DNA of 40,274 bases from Bacteroidota bacterium (lineage in GTDB: Bacteria; Bacteroidota; Ignavibacteria; Kapaibacteriales; UBA961). Position 1 is the first letter of the stretch. Each line of letters starts with the position of its first letter. This document shows positions 12,332 through 40,274 of this stretch, piece after piece. The notes beneath the pieces are model-generated. The model had not been told where the DNA came from. It did no database searches and saw only the letters and a list, made by a program, of their open reading frames with translations. The stretch covers positions 1 to 40,274 of the forward strand of contig JAFDZU010000049.1 of assembly GCA_018266765.1 (NCBI GenBank), in the 5' to 3' direction. A program made the translations under genes and the position numbers.

Positions 12332-12520
12332 AGATTTAATACAAAAGTGATAAAATTGTGCTTTGGGGATTAGAATCGTATTCCTAAAGCGAAACTACGG
12401 AAACATCCAGACATAAAAAAAACAGTTTCACAGAAGAATACAATTAGTATGCAGACAATCGGTTAAATTTTATGTAATAGTATTCAGTAATTCTATCAAA
12501 ATTGTAATGACGCACTCAAA

Positions 12521-12644
12521 GATTTGAATTTTTTAATCGAGGATTTGAATTTTTTAGTCAAGGATTTGAAAATCTTTGTTCACTTAATTCTAATCCTTCA
12601 TTACTTAATTCTAATCCTCAATTACTTAATTCTAATCCTTGATT
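12521..12644. repeat. 21-bp tandem repeats in two blocks of opposite orientation
   Basis: The left block starts GATTTGAATTTTTTAATCGAG (12521-12541), repeats with few changes at 12542-12562 and decays at 12563-12583. The right block is ACTTAATTCTAATCCTTCATT at 12582-12602, 12603-12623 and 12624-12644, differing only near the unit ends. The reverse complement of the right unit contains AAGGATTAGAATTAA, close to AAGGATTTGAATTTT in the left unit. The whole therefore forms an imperfect inverted repeat with 21-bp periodicity. Confidence 0.85.
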
Positions 12645-12862
12645 ATATCTTTTACTTTTTTGCTATTATCACTACTATTTTGGTGCATAGTATCACGGAG
12701 TTTTATAATACCTATTCAATTATTCCTCAATTAGTCTGTAGTTTGGGTTACTGTAATTGTAAGTATGGTATTCAGAACTATTTTGTGGGTGATTGAAGTT
12801 CTGTCTCTCGGCGTATTCCAAACAATCTTCTATAAAAATAAAAGATTCGTGTAAGCATTTAT

Positions 12863-27298: not shown

Positions 27299-28285
27299 AT
27301 GAAAGTATTAGTAACAGGTGCAACCGGTTTTATCGGAAGTCATGTAGCAGATTTACTCGTCGAACGTGGATATGATGTTCGGGCACTCGCTCGAAAAACA
27401 AGTAATTTACAATGGCTCAAAGGTAAAAACATTGAGATTGTTGACGGTTCGATAGATAATCCGCTCTCGCTCGAAAAAGCAATGAAAGACGTTCAAATGG
27501 TCTATCATGTAGCCGGACTGACAGCCGCACGCAATGCCGAAGAATTCATGCGTGGCAATCGTGACGGAACGATAAATATGCTCGAAGCCGCTCTCAAATT
27601 TGCTCCAAATCTCGAACGGTTTCTGCATGTCAGTTCGCTGGCGGCAGTTCGTCCTTCGGTTTCACCCGATAAACCTGTTGATGAATCAACTCCAAGTGCA
27701 CCAATAACTTCCTACGGTCATTCTAAAAAAGCCGCTGAAGATGCGGTTAATTCTTTTGCAAGTAAACTGCCCATTACAATTGTACGTCCTCCGGCAGTAT
27801 ATGGTCAGCGTGAAACAGCAATTCTTGACTTTTTCAAAACTGTGAATAAAGGATTTGTTCCTCATATTGGTTTTGATGAGAAACAAGTCAGCTTGGTGCA
27901 TGGGCTTGACCTTTCACGTGGAATTATCGAAGCCGCCGAATCAGAAAACACCATCGGAAAAACGTACTTTGTTTCTTCGGAAGAATTTTATACATGGGCA
28001 CAAATCGGTGATATTACCGCAAAAATTTTAGGTAAAAAAAGGGCAATTCCACTTCGTCTGCCACATTTTTTGGTGTTTGGTGTTGCAGGTTTATCCGAAT
28101 TTTTCGGGAAATTTTCAGCCAAGCCACCAGTTCTTAATTTTGAAAAAGGACGTGATATTACTACGCCATACTGGATATGTTCGGTCGAACGTGCCAAAGC
28201 TGATTTTGGTTATCGCCAATTGATTTCACTTGAAGACGGAATTCGCCAAACCGTTGATTGGTATAAATCTATGGGGTGGTTGTGA
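27299..28285 (+). CDS. NAD-dependent epimerase/dehydratase (extended SDR)
   Basis: 328 residues acting on a nucleotide sugar, sterol-like or similar substrate. The Rossmann motif TGATGFIG is at 6-13, the active-site serines are in HVSSLAAV (S112, S113), and Y139 and K143 are in SYGHSK. RPPAVYGQRE is the usual substrate-side motif. The C-terminal third (about 215-328) matches the general layout of dihydroflavonol-4-reductase or hopanoid-associated types. The exact substrate cannot be read from the sequence. Its last codons overlap the start of lptC, so the two are translationally coupled. Confidence 0.88.
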   Translation: MKVLVTGATGFIGSHVADLLVERGYDVRALARKTSNLQWLKGKNIEIVDGSIDNPLSLEKAMKDVQMVYHVAGLTAARNAEEFMRGNRDGTINMLEAALKFAPNLERFLHVSSLAAVRPSVSPDKPVDESTPSAPITSYGHSKKAAEDAVNSFASKLPITIVRPPAVYGQRETAILDFFKTVNKGFVPHIGFDEKQVSLVHGLDLSRGIIEAAESENTIGKTYFVSSEEFYTWAQIGDITAKILGKKRAIPLRLPHFLVFGVAGLSEFFGKFSAKPPVLNFEKGRDITTPYWICSVERAKADFGYRQLISLEDGIRQTVDWYKSMGWL

Positions 28286-28821
28286 AAACTGTTACGCGAA
28301 TAATCCTTATTGTTTGCTCTGTGATACTCGGATGTCAGCAGGAGAATAATATCCCGCAACAAAAACTTGCTATCGAACAACTCCAACAGCTTCCCACACA
28401 CACAAGTTGGGATTTTTCGATGGTTATAATGGATTCTAATCGCATTAAATCTACTCTCAAAGCTCGACTCGCGCGCGTTTATGACCAACGCCAAGAAACT
28501 CGGCTCGATACCTCCGTCGTGGTGGAATTTATGAATAGTAATTCTCAACGAGTTGGAATTTTGACTGCCGACAGCGCAATTGTGGACGATAAAACGCGCA
28601 ATATGGTTGCATACGGTCGAGTAAAAGTAGTGTCCGACAGCACACATACAACCCTCCAAACACCGGTTTTAATGTGGAATAATAAAACCAAGAAACTTTA
28701 TACAACAGAAAAAGTCTATATTAAGTCACCAAAAGAAGTTATTTATGGAACAGGAATGGAATCTGACCAATATCTCAAAAACTACAAAATATTCAAAGTA
28801 AGTGGCATTAAAAACCCATAG
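28282..28821 (+). CDS. lptC: LptC-family LPS export protein (lipoprotein)
   Basis: 179 residues starting at the GTG at 28282, whose GTGA overlaps the epimerase stop; a GTG at 28276 is possible. The N-terminus is a lipoprotein signal (IVCSVILGC), so it is lipid-anchored rather than held by a helix as in E. coli LptC. The body is the LptC beta-jellyroll: SWDFSMVIMDSNRIKSTL, TADSAIVDDKTRNMVAYGRV, MWNNKTKKLYTTEKVYI and YGTGMESDQYLKNYKI. LptC passes LPS from LptBFG to the LptA bridge. No lptA or lptB gene is adjacent. It is followed by tpiA 28 nt later. Confidence 0.85.
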   Translation: MKTVTRIILIVCSVILGCQQENNIPQQKLAIEQLQQLPTHTSWDFSMVIMDSNRIKSTLKARLARVYDQRQETRLDTSVVVEFMNSNSQRVGILTADSAIVDDKTRNMVAYGRVKVVSDSTHTTLQTPVLMWNNKTKKLYTTEKVYIKSPKEVIYGTGMESDQYLKNYKIFKVSGIKNP

Positions 28822-28849
28822 AATTTATACTCAAATCGAAAGGAAAACT

Positions 28850-29593
28850 ATGAATAGAAAACATATTGTTGCTAATTGGAAGATGAATACTACCATTAGT
28901 GAAGCTCGAGAGTTAGCCCAAAATTTAGCGAGCCATGAATTTCCAAATGCTCAAATTGTCCTCTGTCCTCCGGCGGTGAATCTTGCAATCGTCGCAGAAT
29001 GTATCGAAGGAAGCAAAATTCAACTCGGAGCGCAAAACTGTTACTATGAATCAAAAGGTGCTTTTACCGGTGAGATTTCTCCTGAAATGCTGGTAGCAGT
29101 GGGCTGTACCTATGTAATTCTCGGTCATTCTGAGCGCAGACATATTTTCAATGAAACAAATGAAATGATTCAGAAAAAAGTTATAGCCGCTGTTTCTGCG
29201 GGATTAATTCCGATTATATGTATCGGTGAAACCCTTGATGAACGCAAGGCAGGCAAAACCTTATCAGTTGTCGAAACTCAACTTCGAGATGCCACTCGGC
29301 TTTTGTTTGACAAAGGAATATTCAATATTATTATTGCCTACGAACCTGTCTGGGCAATCGGTACAGGACTTTCAGCAACACCCGAACAAGCCGAAGAAAT
29401 TCATACATTCATCAGAAATACTAGCACAAAAGACTTCGGAGTCATCACTCAGCAAATTCCTCTATTATATGGCGGAAGTGTGAATGAATCCAATGCACAA
29501 TCATTACTTCAAAAACCCAATATTGATGGTTTTCTCGTCGGTGGTGCATCACTCAAACCTGAATCTTTTTTAGCGATTTGCGGTGCAGTATAA
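28850..29593 (+). CDS. tpiA: Triosephosphate isomerase
   Basis: Glycolytic enzyme converting dihydroxyacetone phosphate and glyceraldehyde 3-phosphate, 247 residues. The frame runs 16 codons further upstream, but the ATG at 28850 has an AGGAAAA ribosome site and gives the canonical MNRKHIVANWKMN. Catalytic residues are N9, K11, H93 (ILGHSERR) and E165 (AYEPVWAIGTG). The phosphate-binding loops LYGGSVN and GFLVGGASL are intact. It follows lptC by 28 nt. Confidence 0.97.
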   Translation: MNRKHIVANWKMNTTISEARELAQNLASHEFPNAQIVLCPPAVNLAIVAECIEGSKIQLGAQNCYYESKGAFTGEISPEMLVAVGCTYVILGHSERRHIFNETNEMIQKKVIAAVSAGLIPIICIGETLDERKAGKTLSVVETQLRDATRLLFDKGIFNIIIAYEPVWAIGTGLSATPEQAEEIHTFIRNTSTKDFGVITQQIPLLYGGSVNESNAQSLLQKPNIDGFLVGGASLKPESFLAICGAV

Positions 29594-29661
29594 GTAGTAT
29601 TTCAAGTTAAATAATGAATAGCTTAGTTTATCGTGCAAATGCTCAAGGAAGCGTCAAGTCA

Positions 29662-29682
29662 AGTCAGTTTTTAAAACTGACT
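29662..29682 (+). terminator. Possible terminator after tpiA
   Basis: AGTCAGTTTT (29662-29671) and AAAACTGACT (29673-29682) are a perfect 10-bp inverted repeat with one central base, so in RNA the A/T core would form the loop. It lies 69 nt after tpiA and is followed by TTTCAATT, a weak tail. Confidence 0.35.
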
Positions 29683-29720
29683 TTCAATTACTAACCAAAG
29701 TTAAAGTTATCACAAAGAAA

Positions 29721-29746
29721 AAGCCCACGAAAAAACTCGCGGGCTT
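29721..29746 (-). terminator. Terminator of the minus-strand surface-gene cluster
   Basis: AAGCCC (29721-29726) pairs with GGGCTT (29741-29746); one mismatch and two more G-C pairs extend the stem. On the minus strand it is followed by TTTCTTTGTG. It lies 68 nt after the stop of the last gene of the cluster (29815). Confidence 0.55.
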
Positions 29747-29814
29747 AAAATCTATGTAACCTATGTGTACCTATATGGTTAAGAAAAAAAATAACACACC
29801 TTCCACCGCAAAAC

Positions 29815-30426
29815 TTAGAATGTAATTCCCATTCCAAATACAAAGTGCTTTTTCAACGGTTGCCACTCCTCCTCTGTAACAGTTGACAGAAACGGAGTCT
29901 GTATATCAACTTGAAATAGAGTACCGCCAGCCGTTACGGGAATCGCAATACCAAAACTCGGACGAAACGCATAGCCAACTTTCGGTTGATAATAGTTATT
30001 AGCGACCACATACAAAAGTGTTCCACTTGAATCTACTTGCCATATCGAATGAAGCCCGAGACCTCCGTACGATAGTTGTAAATCTCTGTCAGTTCCAAAA
30101 AAAATTCCAGAATTGCCATTGTTCCACGAATAAATTCCAGTTCCTCCGTATCCATTTATACCAATTTCCGGCAAAAAACCTTTGGTATGAGAAACGGCGT
30201 AATACAACCCGAGGCGATAATTTAATAAATCACTGACAGTTGCATACGCTGTTGCATTATCACTAATGCCATAGCCCAAACTACAATTCACGGAGCCCGT
30301 ATTACCTACTGACATTGACGCACTTTCGCCCCATTCACCTTTTTTTAAGGCGTGAATTGGGAAGGTCGGGGCGCATCCTCCGAGAAGAATGATTCCAAGA
30401 AGGAATAGGAATGTTTGTTGTTTCAT
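29815..30426 (-). CDS. Small outer-membrane lipoprotein with predicted barrel
   Basis: 203 residues, no family recognised. Residues 1-18 are a lipoprotein signal with lipobox LGGC (C18). The rest is glycine- and tyrosine-rich with alternating strands (GSVNCSLGYGISDNATAYAT, YRLGLYYAVSH, FRPSFGIAIPV) and ends in Phe, so it may form a small barrel or lipocalin-like fold in the outer membrane. Last gene of the minus-strand surface cluster, 20 nt after the phospholipase-like gene, with a terminator behind it. Confidence 0.7.
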   Translation of the reverse strand: MKQQTFLFLLGIILLGGCAPTFPIHALKKGEWGESASMSVGNTGSVNCSLGYGISDNATAYATVSDLLNYRLGLYYAVSHTKGFLPEIGINGYGGTGIYSWNNGNSGIFFGTDRDLQLSYGGLGLHSIWQVDSSGTLLYVVANNYYQPKVGYAFRPSFGIAIPVTAGGTLFQVDIQTPFLSTVTEEEWQPLKKHFVFGMGITF

Positions 30427-30446
30427 AATAGATTATTTCATTAGAT

Positions 30447-32555
30447 TCATCTGTTCACCACAAAATTCTTGCTCGTAATACCATTAGCAGTTTTTACAAC
30501 TGCCATATACATTCCCGGAGCCAAATCAGAAGTATAAACCCTCGACAGCTTATCAGTAGTTTTAACCGTTGTTTCTGATATTTTTACACCCATTTGAGTA
30601 TAAATCGTTACTGTTGCAACGCTTCCTCTGCCATCAACCTGCATATCTATGTAGTCAGAATTGGGGTTTGGGTAGATATTGTAGATGCGGGGTGCATCAT
30701 CGTTGCTACTATTTCTTGATGTTCCCGAAGTATCGCTTCTTATAATCATAGCGGTACTATCGGTTAAAATTATAGTACAAAAACTATTTTCGACTAACAC
30801 AACGGAATCATCCGGTGCATATAGCATAGAGTCGCCTTCGCTAATGACGACTAAACTATCTGTATATAGCAACAACGATGAGTTTATAAGGTAGTTAACA
30901 GTATCAGCAGGATCTATAACTCTTGGAATTTCATTTGTTCTTGTCCAAGACGACAGGAAAATCGTATCACCTGAAGTTGTAACGATTGAATTTTTGAAAA
31001 TGATAACTGAACACTTTGCAAGAGTATCATTCGCTTCTTGGATAATGTTGTCGCTTTTCTTTGCAAAATTCCCAGCAAAATTCCCACTGTTATTGGTATA
31101 GGTGCAAGTTTGAGTTGCAAGTGGACACGCATTTTCTATCTTTGCATGAAATGAACTGCCTGATTTTGCAATGAACCCATCTTTGAGTTGGATTTCATCA
31201 CCCGCCAAGTATGTGAGTGTGCCGCTTTCTACCACCACATTACCTTGTGAGCTAGTCAGGTTTGGATTGACATTTTGCCCTGCTATAATCTTGGTAGATG
31301 CTTTGAAAGTTGCATTTTCTTCTGCTGTTCTCACGCCGTAATAGGTGTGGCTTTGCTGGTAGAGAGTTGCAGGGCATCCGACCAGACTCGTCTTCACGGC
31401 GAACCAATACATGGCGGTAGCGGTTACTCGGATAGCATAATTCATGAGTTCGTCGGCAGTATAAGCTATGCAATAATTTGTACTGGATGCTGAAGCAAAA
31501 TTCCAGTAATCTTTTGAAACACCAACTGAACCCAACTTTGCGTAACGTGCACTCACTAACATACTAGTGCCATTTGTAAGCCAATTATTGCCATCCTCAT
31601 CGGATGAACCAAAATGTGCTGTTAATCGGTTCATTGTGTAAAACATATAACGAAGTGCATCTTTATCAGACATGGAAAATACTTCGAGTAAAAGCCCACC
31701 TTGGTTTGCCGCAGATGTCGATGTCCAGTTCTGAGCAAGAAACGATGTATGCTCATCATTGCAACCGCCTTGTAAATTGTCTCCCATTACAAGTTCGTAT
31801 GTATCATCGCAAGGGTGAGAATCTGCATGAGTATGAGCAGGAACACTCATATCACCAAGTAGATGGAGAATGTGTCCAAATATATTATACCCAATTACTT
31901 TCGCTTGCGCATCCGAGAAATAATTTTGTCTATCTTCTGCCAAATAATGAGGTAATCCCAGGTAATAACCTTTGGTAACATTGCAATTTCCGTTTATAAT
32001 CAAGTCGCATAAGTCTTGGTACTCCATCTGCACACCATTGGTTGATAAGGTCCCCCATGCAAGCGGACCATTGACCTTAAATAAATATTTACCATCTATA
32101 AAAAGTCCATGAATTCCTGTTAGATTCAGTCCATTATTCATGTAGTTTCGAGCTTTGAGAAATGCGTTTTCGTTATTAGGAGTATACCAACTATTGAATT
32201 GAGTATTGTTGTTATCACCATCTTGAGCGCTCCAAAAATGAGTAGTACCAACATAAGCTCCATCAGGTCCATAATATCCCCACACAGGATCTAAAACATC
32301 CTCACGCCAAACCCCAACTGCAAGAGCGGCAGGCAATTCCCAGGGTTTAGGATGATACTTTGCCCAGCCGTAAAAATCATTGCCGGAATTTTGATAATTT
32401 ACACCTACATAATCTCTTAAAGCAGGTATTGCACCCACTTGTTTCTCAAGATACCGATATGCTTCCTGCACAATATACTGATGCACCCACTCTTTGTGGG
32501 CAGAGCAAGGCATAGCGGCAAGCCATAGAACGAAAATTACAAATAGTTTTTTCAT
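30447..32555 (-). CDS. Secreted zinc phospholipase C/P1-nuclease-like enzyme with T9SS tail
   Basis: 702 residues in four parts. Residues 1-19 are a signal peptide ending PCSA. About 20-390 resembles the zinc-dependent phospholipase C and S1/P1 nuclease fold, with likely metal ligands H25, D86 (VWREDVLDP), H106 (TTHFW, like the HFY of Bacillus PC-PLC), H231 and D235 (HLLGDMSVP), H241 and E254. About 400-475 resembles the 3-coathanger stack domain common in secreted Bacteroidota proteins (ITYLAGDEIQLKDGF-like, then AKSGSSFHAKIENAC). The last 75 or so residues are a T9SS type A sorting domain (NIYPNPNSDYIDM). The enzyme should act outside the cell or on its surface, on phospholipid or nucleic acid; the substrate is not decided. 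Confidence 0.75.
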   Translation of the reverse strand: MKKLFVIFVLWLAAMPCSAHKEWVHQYIVQEAYRYLEKQVGAIPALRDYVGVNYQNSGNDFYGWAKYHPKPWELPAALAVGVWREDVLDPVWGYYGPDGAYVGTTHFWSAQDGDNNNTQFNSWYTPNNENAFLKARNYMNNGLNLTGIHGLFIDGKYLFKVNGPLAWGTLSTNGVQMEYQDLCDLIINGNCNVTKGYYLGLPHYLAEDRQNYFSDAQAKVIGYNIFGHILHLLGDMSVPAHTHADSHPCDDTYELVMGDNLQGGCNDEHTSFLAQNWTSTSAANQGGLLLEVFSMSDKDALRYMFYTMNRLTAHFGSSDEDGNNWLTNGTSMLVSARYAKLGSVGVSKDYWNFASASSTNYCIAYTADELMNYAIRVTATAMYWFAVKTSLVGCPATLYQQSHTYYGVRTAEENATFKASTKIIAGQNVNPNLTSSQGNVVVESGTLTYLAGDEIQLKDGFIAKSGSSFHAKIENACPLATQTCTYTNNSGNFAGNFAKKSDNIIQEANDTLAKCSVIIFKNSIVTTSGDTIFLSSWTRTNEIPRVIDPADTVNYLINSSLLLYTDSLVVISEGDSMLYAPDDSVVLVENSFCTIILTDSTAMIIRSDTSGTSRNSSNDDAPRIYNIYPNPNSDYIDMQVDGRGSVATVTIYTQMGVKISETTVKTTDKLSRVYTSDLAPGMYMAVVKTANGITSKNFVVNR

Positions 32556-32645
32556 AAATTTCTAAATATTTAATTATTCAAATAGTTAATTGTTGATTTA
32601 TTGTAGCAAATACAGATTGATTGACTACAAAAATCTGATAAAAAT

Positions 32646-33194
32646 TCACCACGATACCTTGAAAGCATCATATGTAAGAACAAAATCAAGACTCAAGTTA
32701 ACATTTTTGTATTTCATTGAGTTACCTGCATATTTCTTAGTATATCCTGCACTTATTCTTAAAGCTGTTAAATCACCGGTTTGTATTTTCCAACCTATCA
32801 TTGCTTGCCAATAGTTTGAAGACTCGTTAGCACTTTTGGAAATATAAGTATTATAGAAAATAAATGAAAGTCGTTTCTCAGCAAAAGGTGTAAAAATTAT
32901 TCCTTCCGATAGTGCCCTTCCATAAGGATCAATGGGGAGAAGAAATAATGTCAATGCCGATAGCGATGCTATTGCATCCAACCCAAACCCAGCTTCCACC
33001 GCAATAAACTCATTAAGCTTTATTCCTAAGCCAACTCTGCCGCCATTAAACAATCCAAGTCCTACTATTGGCTGGAATGTCAGCGTTGTTTTATTAGTTG
33101 TATCTATTTCACTCGTTTTAGTGCTATCTGTATCTTGAGCGTAAAGACTGCTCGCAATCAATAGACAACACAAAGTAAGTAAGATAAGTTTCAT
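32646..33194 (-). CDS. Small outer-membrane beta-barrel protein
   Basis: 182 residues, unknown function. It has a signal peptide (residues 1-19, cleaved near SLYAQ) and a short acidic and threonine-rich linker (DTDSTKTSEIDTT). Amphipathic strands follow, with glycine pairs and a C-terminal Trp (FKVSW), as in eight-strand barrels. It starts 1 nt after the stop of the fibre-like gene, so translation is almost certainly coupled. A 90-nt gap separates it from the phospholipase-like gene. Confidence 0.68.
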   Translation of the reverse strand: MKLILLTLCCLLIASSLYAQDTDSTKTSEIDTTNKTTLTFQPIVGLGLFNGGRVGLGIKLNEFIAVEAGFGLDAIASLSALTLFLLPIDPYGRALSEGIIFTPFAEKRLSFIFYNTYISKSANESSNYWQAMIGWKIQTGDLTALRISAGYTKKYAGNSMKYKNVNLSLDFVLTYDAFKVSW

Positions 33195-33195
33195 G

Positions 33196-34770
33196 TTATT
33201 TTCTATTACTTATTTGTTGTTGAAGCATCGTAAGTTTATTTTGTAGTTCAATATTATCTTTTTTGAATTGAATCATATAGAGCGTTAGCTCTTCAATCTT
33301 TTGGAGTAATTTTACCTGCATTTCACCCACGCTTGAGCCGCCGTCCTCGCTGACTTGTTTCGCACTTGGAATATTTGGCAAATGATGATTCGCTTTGATG
33401 TGCGATTCAACTTCGTCGAGCGGCATCAGATTGTAGTTTTCATCAAATACATAATCTGCCCAATAGTCGGCAGTAGTTGTAACGTAAAGCTCTTGGACTA
33501 CTGCCTTACCCTTTACAACAAGTTTTGCATCCCACACATGCGGGTTATTTGTAGAGACCCAAGAGCCGTTTACCTGTTTTTGCCACCTCATTAAACCAAA
33601 AGCTCCTTGGTCACTTGCACCATCCCCGATATGAACATACCCATTAGCAAATACCTGAAACGACGATTTATCTTCTGCTCCGGCAGAAATTAGCGGAATG
33701 GACCACCAATAAGGATATGCTCCCCATGATCCTTGCTCAACTCGTAAAGCTACCGGTGCTACACCAGCACGCAGAGGATTTCTTAGAATGGAAAGAGTGC
33801 CTTTCTGTCCTTTCAAATTAAGGGAATTATTTGCCATACTACCACCAAGATTTGCAAGATAATTCCCGATACCAACTGACCCTCCCTGTGATTCCATAAC
33901 CATCATAGTGCCCTCGCCCTGTGGACCACCACCGGGGATAAGACCTGACGAGAAACGCAATTGACTACCGTAGGTGATTGGAGGATTATCTTGGGTGTTA
34001 ATTCCATAGTTATCAATATGATAATTATTATCTAAATTATTTTTAGGAATGAAGGATATTACACCCGGTACTCTTGTTTGTACAACATCATCAAATCCAC
34101 CGGTAGATATAGTTCCACGTACATCAAGTGATGCGTTAGAATATGGAAATATGGTTTTAATTCCAACTTGTTTATCCACAATTCTCATAACTTCATGCAA
34201 ATTTTGTGCATCGCCAAATGTAGGCGAGCCGCTACAAAAAAAGGCAATTCCACCTCTAAATATTCCACCTGCTTGTGTAAGGTCGGGGTCTGTGCCAATC
34301 TCCGGCTGATTTATTGATTTTATTGCTGAAACTTGCCACTTATTTAGTACAAATTGATTGCCTCCAATGGGAGCACGATAATCACTATTCGACCAAAACT
34401 GTATCTCCGATTGTCCGAATTTATTACCATCTACTCCGGTTGTTGCATTACCAAGACTATGCTGAGTTTGCAGACGTAGTATGGCTGGGTAAAGCGGCCC
34501 CAATATATTTCCGGCAGGTGCAATATCTTGAAGAGAATGAACGTGGAGCATGGTTGCAGGATAGAGTGTTCCTATTCCGGTTCTTCCGAGTGGATAAGCA
34601 ATGTCTATAATTGCAGGAGGAGGATTCGGATTAGGTTGGCTGTTCACCCAATCTTGTAATTGAGCAGACATTGGAATAGGGACAAAAGCAAGTATAGTTG
34701 TAATTCCAATAATCAAACAATTACCTAAATAATTCAGAAAAGATGTGCGAACTACGGTCAAGTATTTCAT
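33196..34770 (-). CDS. Secreted fibre-like protein with C-terminal HLP/coiled-coil module
   Basis: 524 residues. The signal peptide is about 1-36 (ending PMSAQ). Then come beta-structured repeats with the pattern V/T-GIGT..P..LHV (GRTGIGTLYPATMLHV; later GSVGIGNYLANL). The C-terminal module spans about 437-524: WADYVFDENYNLMPLDEVE, NHHLPNIPSA, then KIEELTLYMI and a coiled coil to the end. I know this module from many Bacteroidota surface proteins. It is reminiscent of phage tail-fibre tips but lacks the S74 endosialidase-chaperone signature. A good ribosome site (AGGAGATA) precedes the ATG. It is a paralogue of the 38344-40274 gene by this module. It probably forms a trimer at the cell surface; the role is unknown. 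Confidence 0.75.
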   Translation of the reverse strand: MKYLTVVRTSFLNYLGNCLIIGITTILAFVPIPMSAQLQDWVNSQPNPNPPPAIIDIAYPLGRTGIGTLYPATMLHVHSLQDIAPAGNILGPLYPAILRLQTQHSLGNATTGVDGNKFGQSEIQFWSNSDYRAPIGGNQFVLNKWQVSAIKSINQPEIGTDPDLTQAGGIFRGGIAFFCSGSPTFGDAQNLHEVMRIVDKQVGIKTIFPYSNASLDVRGTISTGGFDDVVQTRVPGVISFIPKNNLDNNYHIDNYGINTQDNPPITYGSQLRFSSGLIPGGGPQGEGTMMVMESQGGSVGIGNYLANLGGSMANNSLNLKGQKGTLSILRNPLRAGVAPVALRVEQGSWGAYPYWWSIPLISAGAEDKSSFQVFANGYVHIGDGASDQGAFGLMRWQKQVNGSWVSTNNPHVWDAKLVVKGKAVVQELYVTTTADYWADYVFDENYNLMPLDEVESHIKANHHLPNIPSAKQVSEDGGSSVGEMQVKLLQKIEELTLYMIQFKKDNIELQNKLTMLQQQISNRK

Positions 34771-34806
34771 AAAAATATCTCCTGTAAAGTCTTATTTTAG
34801 TAGTAT

Positions 34807-34889
34807 TCGAGCAAGCCGAGCATTTATTTATAGCTTGCTTGAGTATTTATGCCGCGTGGAATTGCAGTTCTGCGCGGTTCTTTTTTTCT
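34807..34889 (+). ncRNA. Candidate plus-strand small RNA ending in an intrinsic terminator
   Basis: Hairpin 1 pairs TCGAGCAAGC (34807-34816) with GCTTGCTTGA (34833-34842), 10 bp with one G-U. Hairpin 2 pairs CCGCGTGGAA (34852-34861) with TTCTGCGCGG (34868-34877), 10 bp with two G-U and a 6-nt loop, followed by TTCTTTTTTT. All three wobbles are G-U only when read on the plus strand; on the minus strand they become A-C mismatches. There is no plus-strand gene nearby for this terminator to serve (the nearest ends at 29593), so it may end a short or antisense RNA. The 5' end and promoter are not visible. Confidence 0.45.
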
Positions 34890-35038
34890 CAATATCTTGT
34901 TAATACTTCTATTTCCCGTTTGCACTGTGAGAAAATAGAGCAGTGAAAACTAAGTACTTGGTTGTGTTGTTTTTTCTTTGATTAATGGCTCCTCATAAAA
35001 TGTGGATGAAATTTGCTGTCTATATGAGTCCTCACGCA

Positions 35039-35086
35039 GTGGCAGGGTTTTCGGTTATTGAACGAAGCCGGAATGTACCCTGCCAC
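35039..35086 (+). other. Long hairpin near the end of the split T9SS gene
   Basis: GTGGCAGGGT (35039-35048) pairs perfectly with ACCCTGCCAC (35077-35086). Inside, TTTCGG (35049-35054) pairs with CCGGAA (35068-35073) with one G-U, leaving a 13-nt loop and a 3-nt bulge. No T run follows on either strand except the T-rich stretch between it and the minus-strand stop, so it is not a textbook terminator. It may stabilise an mRNA 3' end. Confidence 0.4.
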
Positions 35087-35108
35087 ATGGATTTTGCTTA
35101 AAAAAACC

Positions 35109-35934
35109 TCAATGAATTACAGAAAGTGGCATAACTATATATTCTGAATCTGTTTGAAGTATGCAATGATATAGACCGGAATTCAAATTACTAATATCGA
35201 ACTTTACTAGTCCATTTCTTCTTGCTGATAATTCTTCAACTACCGTAGCAACTATGCGCCCGTATTGATCACTTACTAAAATCTTCAACGGGCTGGACTG
35301 TGATACATTATAGACTATATTCACGATTGACGAAGCAGGCATTGGATAAATATCCAAACTGGCTTGTACTTGTGCCGTGTTATCTAATCCCGTCACCGCT
35401 TCGTTTTCTTCCGAAGATTTTGTGAAAGAACGAGAATCTTTGTAAGCATTACTTCCACAAAATTCAGAAAGTCTGCTCTGCGTTACGGGAGGAATTGTCG
35501 CTGTACATTCTATCGGAAGTGCTAATCGTAAGGTCGTATTATCCCCAATATCAATATTATCTCCAACAATATTGATTTCTTCGCCTGCTGCTATATCAAT
35601 AGGTTGATTATTTGATGATGCTATAGTGGTGTTTTCTCCAATAGTGATCTTTGTCCATGCTCTCAAATTACTTGAAATAGTTTGATTTGATAGTGTTATC
35701 TCATTTTCAATTCCTTGCCAATCACTTTGCCAGAACGAAGCGGGCTTTTGAGTAATAACCTCTTTCCGAACAGGGTATTTACCCTTGAATAAAACGCCTT
35801 GCGTATTTGACGAGGCATCGCTACGTTTGAGACGAACTACAAGACTCAAATATATTCGACCGGATTCTATAAATGGAGAAGAAACTAACCCACAGTTACA
35901 ACTAGGAGAAGGCATCCGCCAGAACCACAACGGT
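35109..35934 (-). pseudogene. C-terminal part of the split T9SS protein (out of frame)
   Basis: This is the continuation of the gene that starts at 37554, put out of frame by the 13-bp duplication at 35935-35960. The frame is open from 35975, but its first codons only re-read the duplicated DNA in another frame, and there is no signal peptide. From the repeat onward it encodes SPSCNCGLVSSPFIESGR, a beta-rich region with ITIGENTTIASS and DIAAGEEINIV (like the 3-coathanger stack type). The final 80 or so residues are a T9SS type A sorting domain (IYPMPASSIVNIVY, then LNSGLYHCIL). Without the N-terminal half it could not be exported, so it is functional only if the frame is restored. Confidence 0.75.
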
Positions 35935-37554
35935 ATATCGGATAAACATATCGGATAAACACCCAAGCGGAACATACTGGGTTCGTACTATTTTGTCACT
36001 TTCAACAATTACACTGGGGTCACTTCTTACAATAGTTCCACCTTCGAAAATCGGACCGTCAAATTCAACCGAAAGAGCACCTAAGATTTCAATTTCACCT
36101 GGGTCAAAACCTGCCGCAAAATTTGCCGCATATTCAATCTCGTCGTGCAATTTAATCTTTAGGGTATCTGCGTACCAATAAGGATTCCAAGTCTCCTTCT
36201 CTGCATAATACCAATCCGCTTTAGGAGTAGTCAATAAATTAAACAACCCAAGTGGTTCATTGTAATAAGGATACTGATCAGTTACCGTAGAAAGATTAGT
36301 AATATTTGAACCCGGTGTCCAAAATATTATCTCTCGATAGGGACTTTTCGCAGTAATATCACCGTTAAAACTGCTTGTTGTATTGATTGTCATGGGCATA
36401 ATTTCTACTTTTTGCGGCTGTGCAGGTTTTGCGCCTCCACCGGTAAAGAAGGAATACATATCCAAAGCGGCACTAACTGCACCACCGATAACAGGAGCAT
36501 ATTTAAGTGCTGTTTGTAAAAAACTAGATTTGCTGATTTCTGTTTCGAGTACATTCAGGGCGGCTGGTTTGAGCTCTCTTCGCTTATTTATTTTATCCTT
36601 CATCTCCTGATTCAAGTATGGACCGTACCCATGATATTCATTAACATTATTCAAAGTGGCTGTCGTAAATCCGCTGATAGCGTTATAAATCTCCGCTCCC
36701 TTTTTACCTGCATTCAAAGCCGCATTTAATCCCATAGAAAATGTTTTTTCTGTTGGAACAACATCATGCGTTTGGTCAATATTAACAATTGTACCTGTTG
36801 TAGTACCACTTAAACTAACTTTGGCGACTGATATAAGATTAACATTTATCTGCATTTGAGACGGATAAGCACAAATACAAGGATCGTACATCATAGGAAA
36901 GTCAGCATACATCCATTTGCGGTTTGTATTGAGATAGCGAGTAATTGCAGATAATTCTGGACCCGGAATAAAATCATCCAAAGCGTGGAGTGGCTTTTGT
37001 TGCGTTGAAGTAGCAATATCAATAACGGAAGGAAATCCACCACCAGGAGGTTTAGATAGTGTTATTACTATCTCTACTTTGTCAAAATTGCCTACACTAA
37101 ACACGGCAACAAATACACGAAGCATACCGGTGTATCGATTGTAAAGAATGAGGCATGGATAGTCCACATCTGAAGTGTAAGCGTTGTTTACTGCATCAAA
37201 AGGAGCACCCATTTCTTGTTTTATCAATTCCCATCCATCTTCCGGGCGCATATCTTTACTCAGATACAAATGATTAGTGATGGAATTATTTGGCTCATAA
37301 AATGGAGAGTTGATATCCACAGAAGTCGTTAGAGACGACCTTATATCGAATAGAGGTCGCCGCCAATCAAAAATCACCGGGCGATTATCGCCGCTATGGG
37401 GGCCATTCTGTTTTGATGGTTTTTCGGTATTCACAGCCGCATCAGGATTCGTTGATATGCCTTTATCTTCATTGCATGGCGTCTGTGCAACTGCTATAGT
37501 ACACATTAAAATACACGCCATGACTACTAAAAAAATACGATGGAAAATAGTCAT
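35902..37554 (-). CDS. N-terminal part of a large secreted protein, split by a frameshift
   Basis: 550 residues in the present frame. The signal peptide is about 1-23 (MACILMCTIAVAQ). The next 500 residues match no family I recognise. They include IFDWRRPLFDIRSS near residue 61, a hydrophobic helical segment (YAPVIGGAVSAALDMYSFF near residue 360) that could insert in a membrane, and several paired cysteines (DPCICAYP). The protein ends in VVVLADAFS, without a sorting domain, 13 or so codons past the tandem duplication. A perfect AAGGAG ribosome site precedes the ATG, which overlaps the stop of the upstream lipoprotein gene (ATGA). In this form the product would reach the periplasm but not the T9SS. 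Confidence 0.75.
   Translation of the reverse strand: MTIFHRIFLVVMACILMCTIAVAQTPCNEDKGISTNPDAAVNTEKPSKQNGPHSGDNRPVIFDWRRPLFDIRSSLTTSVDINSPFYEPNNSITNHLYLSKDMRPEDGWELIKQEMGAPFDAVNNAYTSDVDYPCLILYNRYTGMLRVFVAVFSVGNFDKVEIVITLSKPPGGGFPSVIDIATSTQQKPLHALDDFIPGPELSAITRYLNTNRKWMYADFPMMYDPCICAYPSQMQINVNLISVAKVSLSGTTTGTIVNIDQTHDVVPTEKTFSMGLNAALNAGKKGAEIYNAISGFTTATLNNVNEYHGYGPYLNQEMKDKINKRRELKPAALNVLETEISKSSFLQTALKYAPVIGGAVSAALDMYSFFTGGGAKPAQPQKVEIMPMTINTTSSFNGDITAKSPYREIIFWTPGSNITNLSTVTDQYPYYNEPLGLFNLLTTPKADWYYAEKETWNPYWYADTLKIKLHDEIEYAANFAAGFDPGEIEILGALSVEFDGPIFEGGTIVRSDPSVIVESDKIVRTQYVPLGCLSDMFIRYTVVVLADAFS
35935..35960 (-). repeat. Perfect 13-bp tandem duplication causing a frameshift
   Basis: On the plus strand ATATCGGATAAAC occurs at 35935-35947 and again at 35948-35960 (GTTTATCCGATAT twice in gene sense). 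Thirteen is not a multiple of three. Removing one copy gives 37554-35109 minus 13 = 2433 nt = 811 codons including the stop, and the join reads PLGCLSDIPLWFWRMPSPS without a stop. Confidence 0.95.
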
Positions 37555-38339
37555 CGGATTCTCCTTCCTGTAAATACCTTATGGTGTGAAATACCATCAC
37601 CTGCTCGGTCGGTCTGAACATAATCAATGATAATGCTGTCACGATTTTCAGGTAGAAGTCGCATATATCCTTCAAGTGATAAAAGACCGCACGTTGGTAC
37701 CGTAGCATAGATATGGAATCCCATAGAGATATTACCAATATCTCGAGCTACAGGTGAAGACACTTTAGTGCAATCATCCATAAATCCACGATTGATGTTG
37801 CGAACGGCGAGGAAAATATCCGATTTCCAAAAAATATCTACTGTAAACGTATCAAGAGGATTCTCATCAGTATGATGCCCCAGATAGCTGCCAAGAATTT
37901 TAGCATCTGCCGGATATCGGAAGACAATAAAACGATTAGCTGTATCTATGCCATCATCATCCGAGTAGCAGTCTGTGCGTGGCTTCCGCCGCCCTATAAA
38001 CGTTATGGGCAAAGGCACGAGTTCAGAAACCTGTGTTGGACTAAAGTCAAGAGAAAAAGCACTATCAGTCCTAATGCGGTCATCATAACCGATATGCCAC
38101 TCGTAGCTATCATACCGCTCATCAGCTGCAAATCTGACGGGGTTAACATAAATAAAAGTGTCAGTTTTGGCTAAGTTGGGTTTAGGGTTATTGTATAAGC
38201 CATAGACTATCTCATACGTTGAAAATCGTGCAGTAACTGGCTCGGCACCTGCACATGGATCCACAACGATGTTATCAGGGCATCCGCTAAAAACGACCGC
38301 GCCCAACAGCATCACTATTAGAATTATTTTGTTTTTCAT
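37551..38339 (-). CDS. Lipoprotein of unknown function
   Basis: 262 residues from the ATG at 38339. The frame runs 26 codons further up, into the preceding gene, but the chosen ATG has an AAAGGA ribosome site and starts the lipoprotein signal (IVMLLGAVVFSGC). The mature part is beta-rich, with an acidic stretch (CYSDDDGID) and YEWHIGYDDRIRTDSAFS, which resembles PKD- or Ig-like folds. I recognise no family. It begins 4 nt after the fibre-like gene and its stop overlaps the next start (ATGA), so the three genes are tightly coupled. Confidence 0.75.
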   Translation of the reverse strand: MKNKIILIVMLLGAVVFSGCPDNIVVDPCAGAEPVTARFSTYEIVYGLYNNPKPNLAKTDTFIYVNPVRFAADERYDSYEWHIGYDDRIRTDSAFSLDFSPTQVSELVPLPITFIGRRKPRTDCYSDDDGIDTANRFIVFRYPADAKILGSYLGHHTDENPLDTFTVDIFWKSDIFLAVRNINRGFMDDCTKVSSPVARDIGNISMGFHIYATVPTCGLLSLEGYMRLLPENRDSIIIDYVQTDRAGDGISHHKVFTGRRIR

Positions 38340-38343
38340 AGAA

Positions 38344-40274
38344 TTAGTCCTTTGGTTTAGGTTGTGAAGCATCAAGTACATCCATGCGCTGGCGTAATTG
38401 TTTGTTTTCTTGTTCAAGTTTTATCAAATGCAACGTCAGTTCCTCTACTTTTCTCAATAATGTTGCCTGAATTTCTTGGAGGTCAACACCGTTCTTTTGT
38501 ACTTCTTGTTCGGTAGGAACTTCAGGAAGATGTCCGTTTTTGTCAATAAATTCTTTGACTTCAGAGAGTGACATTAATTGATAGTCAGACCGAAATACAT
38601 TGTCTGCCCAATTATTTGCTGTTACTCGCACTAATTTTGCTACAACAGCACCATTAACCGACAGGAGAGATGGGTAGTTGCTTCTATTTAGATTTCCGGC
38701 AGTGCTGGTGTAATCCCACACATTGCCGACGTGAACATCACCGTTAGCGGCAATCTGCATACGTGGCGTACTGTATGTTTTGAATACAAGCGGCTTCTCG
38801 TCTATTGTACCAATAAACACTGAATTAGTTCCTACGGTATTCCCACTCAGCGACCATCCACCTGCCGAACCCGATGCCATAACAAGTTCTCCATTAGCAT
38901 TGGCATAGATAGCACGTTCGCCTGTACCTGCAAGATTATTGATGGTTACTTTGCCATCGTTTGCAATTGAGAATGCCGTGTTCCATGTTATTGGCGAACC
39001 CGTCATCCCCTCTGCACCAACCTGCAAGGTAATACCTCCATCACTCATACCGATTGCGGCGGGTTTTTTACCTTGTCCTGTGCTTCCCGACATACGTTTC
39101 CACCCATCATTATAATAGGCATTATGAGCAATGACACTCGAATTACCTGCAAAAAATCCAAGCATATCATTAATCTGGAATTGAGATTTCACTATATCGG
39201 TACCAATACCCACGTTACCATTATCTTTTACGGCAAATCGAGTTTGTGGTGTTCCTTCGTCATTTGTAACTCGAAACGCATTTTTTGTAGCATCAGATTC
39301 TGTCAATCCACGAACTACCACACGGCTATTAGGGTCGGGTACTGTACCCAATCCAATATACCCTTTGTCACCGTTTGTCATTACATCGTTATTATCATTC
39401 CATATAGAAATTCCTTTTACTTGATAATTGGGACCCTTATAGTTGACATTCGTCCCTATTTGTCCTGTTCCATTATTGGTAATGAACATAGTATTCTCAT
39501 ATTTTGCGAACATAATACCCATAGTAGGCGATTCACTTATTCGCTTTGTTTGATAAGCAGTATTTTCATACTGATTATATCCAATATAATATTCATTTTC
39601 ACCAACATGAAATGTGAGCTTTTGATTAATGTGGAGAGCTTCGAGGGGAGTAGCAGTTCCTATGCCGACCTGCCCGTTATCAAGAATAGTCATGCGTTCA
39701 TTTTGTGTCCCCGCTACTTTGGTTGTGAAAAATTTAATTCTCGACCCTGCATTATTCGTAGAAAGAAGTAAGTCTTTTGCATCACAAGTCGAAACCAAAA
39801 ACACATCACCAACATCAAAATTTTGTCCAAAGTTTCCGTTGAGTGATACAGGATATAGTCTTGCTGCCGGAAAACCGTCAATGATGAAGGGAGGCATAAT
39901 TCCGATTCTTCCTGCACGTTCGTATGCACAATCGCCAACTATCCCTTCCACATGGTAAGAAAATCTTATAGTTGGCATCGGTTCAAATCCAATTGGACTG
40001 ATACCGGCATGAAGTCGCATTCCATCTCCTAAAGGGCTTAGGCATGGAGTGGGTGTTTGGTAAGGACCGAGATTATACATCAGCCCGTTCGTACATGAAA
40101 TACTACAACCGGCATCCCCACCTAATGGTTGTCCGGTAAGCCGCGTACTATTGCTGGTACACGTTTGCCCGAACAATACAGAAGGGGAAGTTATCATAGC
40201 AATTGCAAAAATTATTACAATGCTAAAGCATCGGGTTAGTAGAATAAACCGTCTGCGGTCTGCGGTCTGCGGTC
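38344..40274 (-). CDS. Secreted fibre-like protein, start beyond the window
   Basis: The first ATG in frame is at 40197 (617 residues), but the frame stays open to the window edge. The upstream codons complete a signal peptide: RRRFILLTRCFSIVIIFAIA then MITSPSVLFGQ. The real start is therefore probably outside. The body has repeated VGIGT..P..LHI units (VGIGTATPLEALHI, GNVGIGTDIVKSQFQI, IGLGTVPDP). The C-terminal module matches the 33196-34770 gene: WADNVFRSDYQLMSLSEV (from 530), HLPEVPT (556), KVEELTLHLI and a coiled coil at about 575-608. Likely a trimeric surface fibre. It is the first visible gene of the cluster, and its 5' end contains the heptanucleotide repeats. Confidence 0.75.
   Translation of the reverse strand, partial: PQTADRRRFILLTRCFSIVIIFAIAMITSPSVLFGQTCTSNSTRLTGQPLGGDAGCSISCTNGLMYNLGPYQTPTPCLSPLGDGMRLHAGISPIGFEPMPTIRFSYHVEGIVGDCAYERAGRIGIMPPFIIDGFPAARLYPVSLNGNFGQNFDVGDVFLVSTCDAKDLLLSTNNAGSRIKFFTTKVAGTQNERMTILDNGQVGIGTATPLEALHINQKLTFHVGENEYYIGYNQYENTAYQTKRISESPTMGIMFAKYENTMFITNNGTGQIGTNVNYKGPNYQVKGISIWNDNNDVMTNGDKGYIGLGTVPDPNSRVVVRGLTESDATKNAFRVTNDEGTPQTRFAVKDNGNVGIGTDIVKSQFQINDMLGFFAGNSSVIAHNAYYNDGWKRMSGSTGQGKKPAAIGMSDGGITLQVGAEGMTGSPITWNTAFSIANDGKVTINNLAGTGERAIYANANGELVMASGSAGGWSLSGNTVGTNSVFIGTIDEKPLVFKTYSTPRMQIAANGDVHVGNVWDYTSTAGNLNRSNYPSLLSVNGAVVAKLVRVTANNWADNVFRSDYQLMSLSEVKEFIDKNGHLPEVPTEQEVQKNGVDLQEIQATLLRKVEELTLHLIKLEQENKQLRQRMDVLDASQPKPKD
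40254..40274. repeat. Heptanucleotide tandem repeat at the window end
   Basis: TGCGGTC occurs three times in a row (40254-40260, 40261-40267, 40268-40274), with GTC of a partial unit before it. The array reaches the last base, so its true length is unknown. In gene sense it lies just before the hydrophobic part of the fibre-like signal peptide. Seven is not a multiple of three. Confidence 0.9.

Follow-up and report, generated by a model that had tools for sequence, protein, structure and literature searches.

The question raised by positions 34,807 to 34,889 of the window, by which we mean the whole 40,274-nt stretch analyzed here, is what a strong terminator-like structure is doing on a strand with no gene in the 5 kb before it. 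The first-pass annotation had described two consecutive 10-bp hairpins there, with three G-U wobbles that pair only on the plus strand, and had nominated the site as a candidate small or antisense RNA. Folding and a terminator scan bear out the two plus-strand hairpins at that position, and the T tract TCTTTTTTT is present at the end of the second (Table 1). The figure of 10 bp describes the core of each hairpin; the stems themselves are longer, with 15 pairs in stem 1 of the window copy (34802-34816 with 34833-34847, 12 of which are in the consensus of the family described below) and 12 in stem 2. Likewise, the three wobbles are the G-U pairs within the two 10-bp cores, and over all 24 consensus pairs the window copy has six. 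The MFE of the hairpin pair is -36.0 kcal/mol versus a shuffled mean of -19.8 (sd 2.7), giving z = -5.93 with none of 200 shuffles as low; the hairpins are real, far beyond chance. Among 15 terminator-like sites in 28000-40274, stem 2 ranks first. The claim that no plus-strand gene exists for 5 kb upstream holds over about 5.2 kb, back to the last likely plus-strand gene, an ORF ending at 29593, and the smaller plus-strand ORFs upstream of the element are antisense within minus-strand genes. Since the likely genes from 29593 to 40274 are all on the minus strand, no coding transcript ends at the element. No tRNA or tmRNA was found in the window, and the element has no match in Rfam 15 at the gathering cut-off; the only hits at E up to 5 are L20_leader (15.5 bits against a cut-off of 58.7) and U2 (13.2 bits against 46), both chance-like.

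Table 1. Coordinates in the window of the two-hairpin element and of the features predicted or read around it.
Feature	Position	Strand	Remarks
Predicted -7 promoter box TATTTTAG	34793..34800	+	Family consensus TATTTTTG; compare Bacteroidota sigma-A TAnnTTTG
Predicted antisense RNA, 83 nt	34805..34887	+	Runs from A34805 (+1) through the T tract
Stem-loop 1	34805..34844	+	12 consensus pairs, 34805-34816/34833-34844; A+T-rich variable loop
Stem-loop 2, terminator hairpin	34851..34878	+	12 pairs, 34851-34862/34867-34878; 4-nt loop
Terminator T tract TCTTTTTTT	34879..34887	+	TTCTTTT ends stem 2 in 6/6 copies
Fiber-like protein gene, 524 aa, N-terminal hydrophobic segment	33196..34770	-	Start codon 34 nt before predicted +1
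Part of the intergenic leader of the fiber-like gene	34771..34887	-	Presumed; complementary to the predicted RNA in mRNAs starting upstream of 34887

The element belongs to a small family. A search of the window gap against the whole of its own genome (3.71 Mb, 106 contigs) found four more copies, at C35:9456, C74:15832, C57:31108 (minus) and C1:196 (minus), named below by their contigs. A covariance model of these five copies, R1, re-found all five at 104 to 118 bits and located a sixth in the congener G001 at 99.6 bits, a copy also present in JACPWH010000230.1 (Ignavibacteriae groundwater MAG). With a six-row model, R2, the six copies score 100.8 to 116.7 bits and the next best match in three genus genomes scores 22.4 bits; the copies score high by construction because they built R2, and it is the gap to the next match that is informative. 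The covariance search of relatives that the first-pass annotation had suggested as a check gave the one copy in G001 and none in the congener G002 (82% complete, searched with R2) or in the wider genomes. R1 against 99 relatives, at E 0.05 or better, matched five, two of which are the own genome and G001; the matches in G005, G007 and G055 were rejected as copies, being on reading ordinary hairpins or terminators without the box and stem 1. With R2 and a cut-off of E 0.001, four of 391 class genomes matched, the own genome among them, with G001 not listed in that draw; G335 and G131 are on reading plain hairpins or terminators, G387 has nothing recognizable, and all three were rejected. The element pattern has no match in viral contigs. 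The only full-length homolog of the fiber-like gene found in the congeners, at G002:C598, has a different gap and no copy, and the element is conserved across paralogous gaps.

On the plus strand, each of the six copies reads TAT[AT]TT[AT]G, a four-base spacer, stem 1, then a short linker leading to stem 2, and TTCTTTT, with core identity between copies of 76 to 91%. At C74 the core is 80 to 91% identical to the others, while the flanks on both sides are 52 to 62% identical to those of the other copies, the exception being 73% to C1 on the far side, a value that random comparisons also reach (mean 59, max 77). Since the flanks of C74 are not clearly alike while the core is, the conserved unit there extends from the box to the T tract. 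Among C35, C57, C1 and G001, conservation goes past the T tract, at 67 to 91% pairwise over the next 100 nt.

The opposite-strand genes at all six copies apparently encode secreted proteins, signal peptides having been judged by reading N-terminal sequences, without a prediction program. In the window it is the fiber-like protein, with a weak, sub-cut-off tail-fiber match (Pfam E = 0.027); next come an outer-membrane beta-barrel-like protein (sub-cut-off) and, after it, a T9SS-sorted protein. C35, C1 and a 45-aa start at C57 encode Cys-rich proteins of one family, C74 a 391-aa protein that has no Pfam match and adjoins a T9SS-sorted metalloprotease-like protein, and G001 a SprB-repeat protein beside the copy. 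BLASTP relates C35 to C1 (E = 1e-4) and C1 to C57, and finds no full-length relation of the window, C74 or G001 genes, either to these three or among themselves; because it links only C35, C1 and C57, the element is common to unrelated genes. For the genes adjoining the window, C35, C74, C1 and G001 copies, Pfam lists no TonB-dependent/SusC or SusD family. At C57 and G001 the upstream neighbor is a gene for a small HTH_18 (AraC-type) regulator; it is beside those two copies only, not in the window, and was rejected as a fixed partner.

The surroundings offer further observations. Small stand-alone HTH_18/AraC-type regulators, followed by a long leader and an apparently secreted-protein gene, are found at loci L011, L046 and L068-L073, with TAnnTTTG too and in most of them short direct repeats; this genus-level set looks like paired regulators and operators. 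The contig ends of C57, C88 and C1 (L090, L089 and L012) have a common inverted-repeat-like sequence, a pattern that would fit an insertion sequence breaking up the Cys-rich gene (C57/C88) and lying upstream of the element at C1. A second hairpin repeat (GTGGCAGGGT...ACCCTGCCAC) occupies 35039-35087 in the same gap of the window, with copies at G000:C61:362, C61:3555 and C82:35298 of 90 to 92% identity. C61 and C82 also have homologs of the C-terminal domain of the fiber-like protein, plus 21-bp tandem arrays, and the same period recurs in two adjacent 21-bp arrays (2.6 and 3.0 copies) at 12516-12645 of the window. A second protein with that C-terminal domain is encoded at 38371-38676 (E = 9.5e-18).

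The alignment of the six copies bears on whether the stems are selected for pairing, and on which strand. Over the 24 consensus pairs, 142 of 143 cells are standard pairs, compared with 31 to 45% paired when the structure is slid along the alignment as a control. Both sides have changed in 4 of the 24 pairs (5 cells), a result reached by 0 of 500 shuffles in cells and 5 of 500 in pairs, from a count of rows, six, that is few. In all, the 144 cells comprise 115 Watson-Crick, 27 G-U, 0 A-C and 2 others (one gap, one mismatch), with G-U occurring in 10 pairs and A-C in none. Eight of the ten G-U pairs vary among copies; the two invariant ones are the outermost and the loop-closing pairs of stem 2 and may reflect where the stem is drawn. 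A plus-strand G-U is an A-C on the minus strand, and therefore selection for pairing would have acted on the plus strand, which is, by this comparison of copies, the selected strand. Across the six copies the MFE is -35.5 to -39.9 kcal/mol on the plus strand and -19.7 to -28.9 on the minus, and the minus strand is also better than its shuffles (z = -2.7 to -5.3).

A transcript ending here could, in the first-pass annotation, begin either within the fiber-like gene or just upstream of the first hairpin. The second of these is supported, in that a conserved box makes stem 1 begin at the predicted +1 in every one of the six copies. The first is not, because the flanking genes are of several unrelated families and the gene-side sequence is less conserved than the core. 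TAT[AT]TT[AT]G is at the box position in every copy, and a perfect TAnnTTTG is at the right place in four of the six, the window and C74 copies each departing from it at one base. The sections of PMC9723704 drawn on here report the Flavobacterium psychrophilum sigma-A box at -12 to -5, and by that placement consensus stem 1 would start at the +1, which is a purine in all six copies, and the predicted RNA would measure 81 to 83 nt. In every copy the predicted RNA points away from the opposite-strand gene, whose start codon is 32 to 34 nt from the +1 in five copies and 44 nt in one, and 20 to 22 nt from the box in five and 32 nt in C74.

The box was put in context by a survey of 167 upstream regions in 478 kb of the own genome, which include the window and the C35 and C74 loci. 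The coding strand has 69 occurrences of TAnnTTTG, compared with 32 for the opposite strand and 25 in shuffles, or 27 versus 8 when only co-directional gaps are taken. The family consensus TATTTTTG is found 20 times on the coding strand versus 8 on the other, and the window variant TATTTTAG 3 versus 4, with no strand bias. Because TAnnTTTG is strand-biased upstream of genes here, a promoter of its own is plausible for the element. No clear -33 TTTG/TTG stands at the usual distance upstream of the boxes in the six copies, and the conserved T-rich box could alternatively be an A-rich translation leader of the opposite-strand gene.

At the other end, stem-loop 2 and the T tract are an intrinsic terminator by sequence, with a G+C-rich hairpin and a T tract directly after. 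The element differs from ordinary ones in that no co-oriented gene ends at the terminator in any copy, and in that a -7-like box and another conserved stem accompany it; the far neighbor is likewise on the opposite strand in all five copies where it is readable. Of 51 terminator-like hairpins in the same 478 kb, 31 mark the ordinary ends of genes and 7 are antisense-facing between two opposite genes. Three of the 7 are the element itself, two of their loci having been sampled because they hold it. The other four comprise a doubtful one and three with A tracts on the other side, which are for that reason taken as two-way ends of the opposite gene. In the copies of the element such an A tract is lacking, and the idea that it is a two-way terminator of this kind was dropped.

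These findings bear on whether the double hairpin is a one-way roadblock that stops antisense polymerases leaving the secreted-protein gene and shields its upstream regulatory region, with any RNA at most a by-product. A strong terminator and plus-strand-selected pairs in all six copies would suit that role, as would the weak -33 and imperfect box of the window copy. However, one hairpin would be enough to block polymerases, and here a second conserved 12-bp stem sits exactly at the predicted +1, the TAT[AT]TT[AT]GTA box is also conserved, and the other antisense-facing sites are mostly (3 of 4) two-way ends of the opposite gene, so that we think a roadblock unlikely.

Alternatively, the hairpins might serve the secreted-protein mRNA as part of its 5' UTR, stabilizing it or forming a switch, for instance. 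The box lies at a constant place 20 to 32 nt before the start codon, the minus strand folds better than chance, and at C57 and G001 there is a perfect minus-strand TAnnTTTG 177 to 239 nt beyond the stem-loop 2 reference point, so that the leader would include the element there. On the other side, all 27 wobble cells pair on the plus strand only and none on the minus only, the minus-strand MFE is 10 to 16 kcal/mol weaker, and the T tract is meaningful on the plus strand only; a role in the sense leader strikes us as rather improbable. The minus-strand boxes at C57 and G001 have a further consequence, which is that mRNAs from there would carry the full complement of the predicted RNA. No perfect minus-strand TAnnTTTG lies inside the element in any of the 6 copies, and beyond the element one was seen at C57 and G001 only, the window copy having none within the scanned region. 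Its leader complement could possibly be carried by read-through from the 35109-35975 gene, as no minus-strand terminator is listed in the gap. At L068 of G002, the leader of the fiber-like homolog has a hairpin on the sense strand and then ACTTTTTTT, about 190 nt after a regulator gene; this sense hairpin, possibly an attenuator, stands where the antisense element would be.

A functionless selfish repeat of the REP or MITE kind is very improbable: several copies have differing neighbor genes and GTAG adjoins the hairpin foot in 5 of 6, GTAG beside an imperfect palindrome being a feature of REP elements, but the own genome has only 5 copies and no Y1/RAYT transposase (PF01797, for which the control matched 5 of 14 genomes), no terminal inverted repeats are visible by eye at the core ends, and all six copies have the same orientation with the box at most 32 nt from a start codon.

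The reading that we prefer, and hold to be probable, is that 34793-34887 is a plus-strand cis-antisense RNA gene opposite the leader of a secreted-protein mRNA. The small or antisense RNA of the first-pass annotation is, on the structure, family, box and terminator, the best reading, once the start within the fiber-like gene is given up. A Bacteroidota-type primary sigma factor with RNA polymerase would start at about A34805 from the box at 34793-34800, the two tight hairpins would be transcribed, and transcription would stop at the second as an intrinsic terminator, leaving an RNA of about 83 nt. That RNA would pair with the minus-strand 5' leader of the fiber-like gene, from 34 nt before the start codon, most likely lowering the output of the gene in cis. 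The route may be leader pairing followed by decay or an altered leader fold, or the two polymerases may collide. Since the predicted RNA leaves the start codon uncovered, it would not be expected to block ribosomes directly. The sign of regulation is not safe, as antisense-PUL pairs in the excerpts of PMC10994844 are both anti-correlated and correlated. The own genome has no match to Hfq (the control matched 5 of 14 genomes) and does have a gene for an RRM protein, at 83 bits, which is by analogy a possible partner of the RNA; in the part of PMC11697453 drawn on here, RbpB of B. thetaiotaomicron counteracts FopS sRNAs. The copies being 76 to 91% alike, cross-pairing with each other's leaders is possible. 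A bolder and rather doubtful extension is a genus-specific portable promoter-RNA-terminator cassette of about 97 bp, copied before unrelated secreted-protein genes, in which repression of the own gene and stem-based cross-talk between leaders would set the secreted proteins against one another instead of switching them independently.

The cis-antisense RNAs associated with PULs in Bacteroides, DonS among them, were reportedly described by Cao et al. in 2016. Passages of PMC7366714 give DonS-type RNAs as 78 to 128 nt and divergently encoded to susC genes. The RNA predicted here is in the same length class and has the same divergent cis-antisense placing at the 5' end of a surface-protein gene, an arrangement found in all six copies; a sigma-ABfr-type box accompanies about half of the cis-antisense RNAs there, as far as the extracts of PMC7366714 and PMC10994844 go. 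Measured against the same partial sources, the element differs in that its loci have no susC or PUL but T9SS-type or other apparently secreted proteins, and in that its paralogs have one two-hairpin structure in common; expression and repression are predictions here. Furthermore, the predicted RNA is wholly in the leader with the start codon uncovered. We do not file the element as DonS-type, because the PUL/susC feature is absent. The best explanation, by this comparison, is that it would work like a DonS-type antisense RNA at non-PUL loci, with a conserved structure of its own.

FopS, a 14-member paralogous sRNA family of B. thetaiotaomicron in passages of PMC11697453, is alike in being a multicopy paralogous family in a Bacteroidota relative, with a canonical promoter, a terminator hairpin and a surface-protein theme. 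As described in that material, the FopS RNAs are trans-acting, with a 5' seed that is single-stranded and a single terminator hairpin, whereas the element is almost fully paired and each copy is opposite its own candidate target. The element also lacks an Rfam match, which would be a further difference if Rfam 15 contains FopS.

No described small RNA emerged from a literature search on small, antisense or noncoding RNA in Ignavibacteria, Ignavibacterium and Kapabacteria. With its few members and sharp limits, the family is testable with a single strand-specific RNA data set. If it is transcribed, an uncultured Ignavibacteria-type lineage would have a family of structured antisense RNAs in control of secreted and surface proteins, and the DonS principle would reach past gut Bacteroides and PULs to genes for T9SS cargo.
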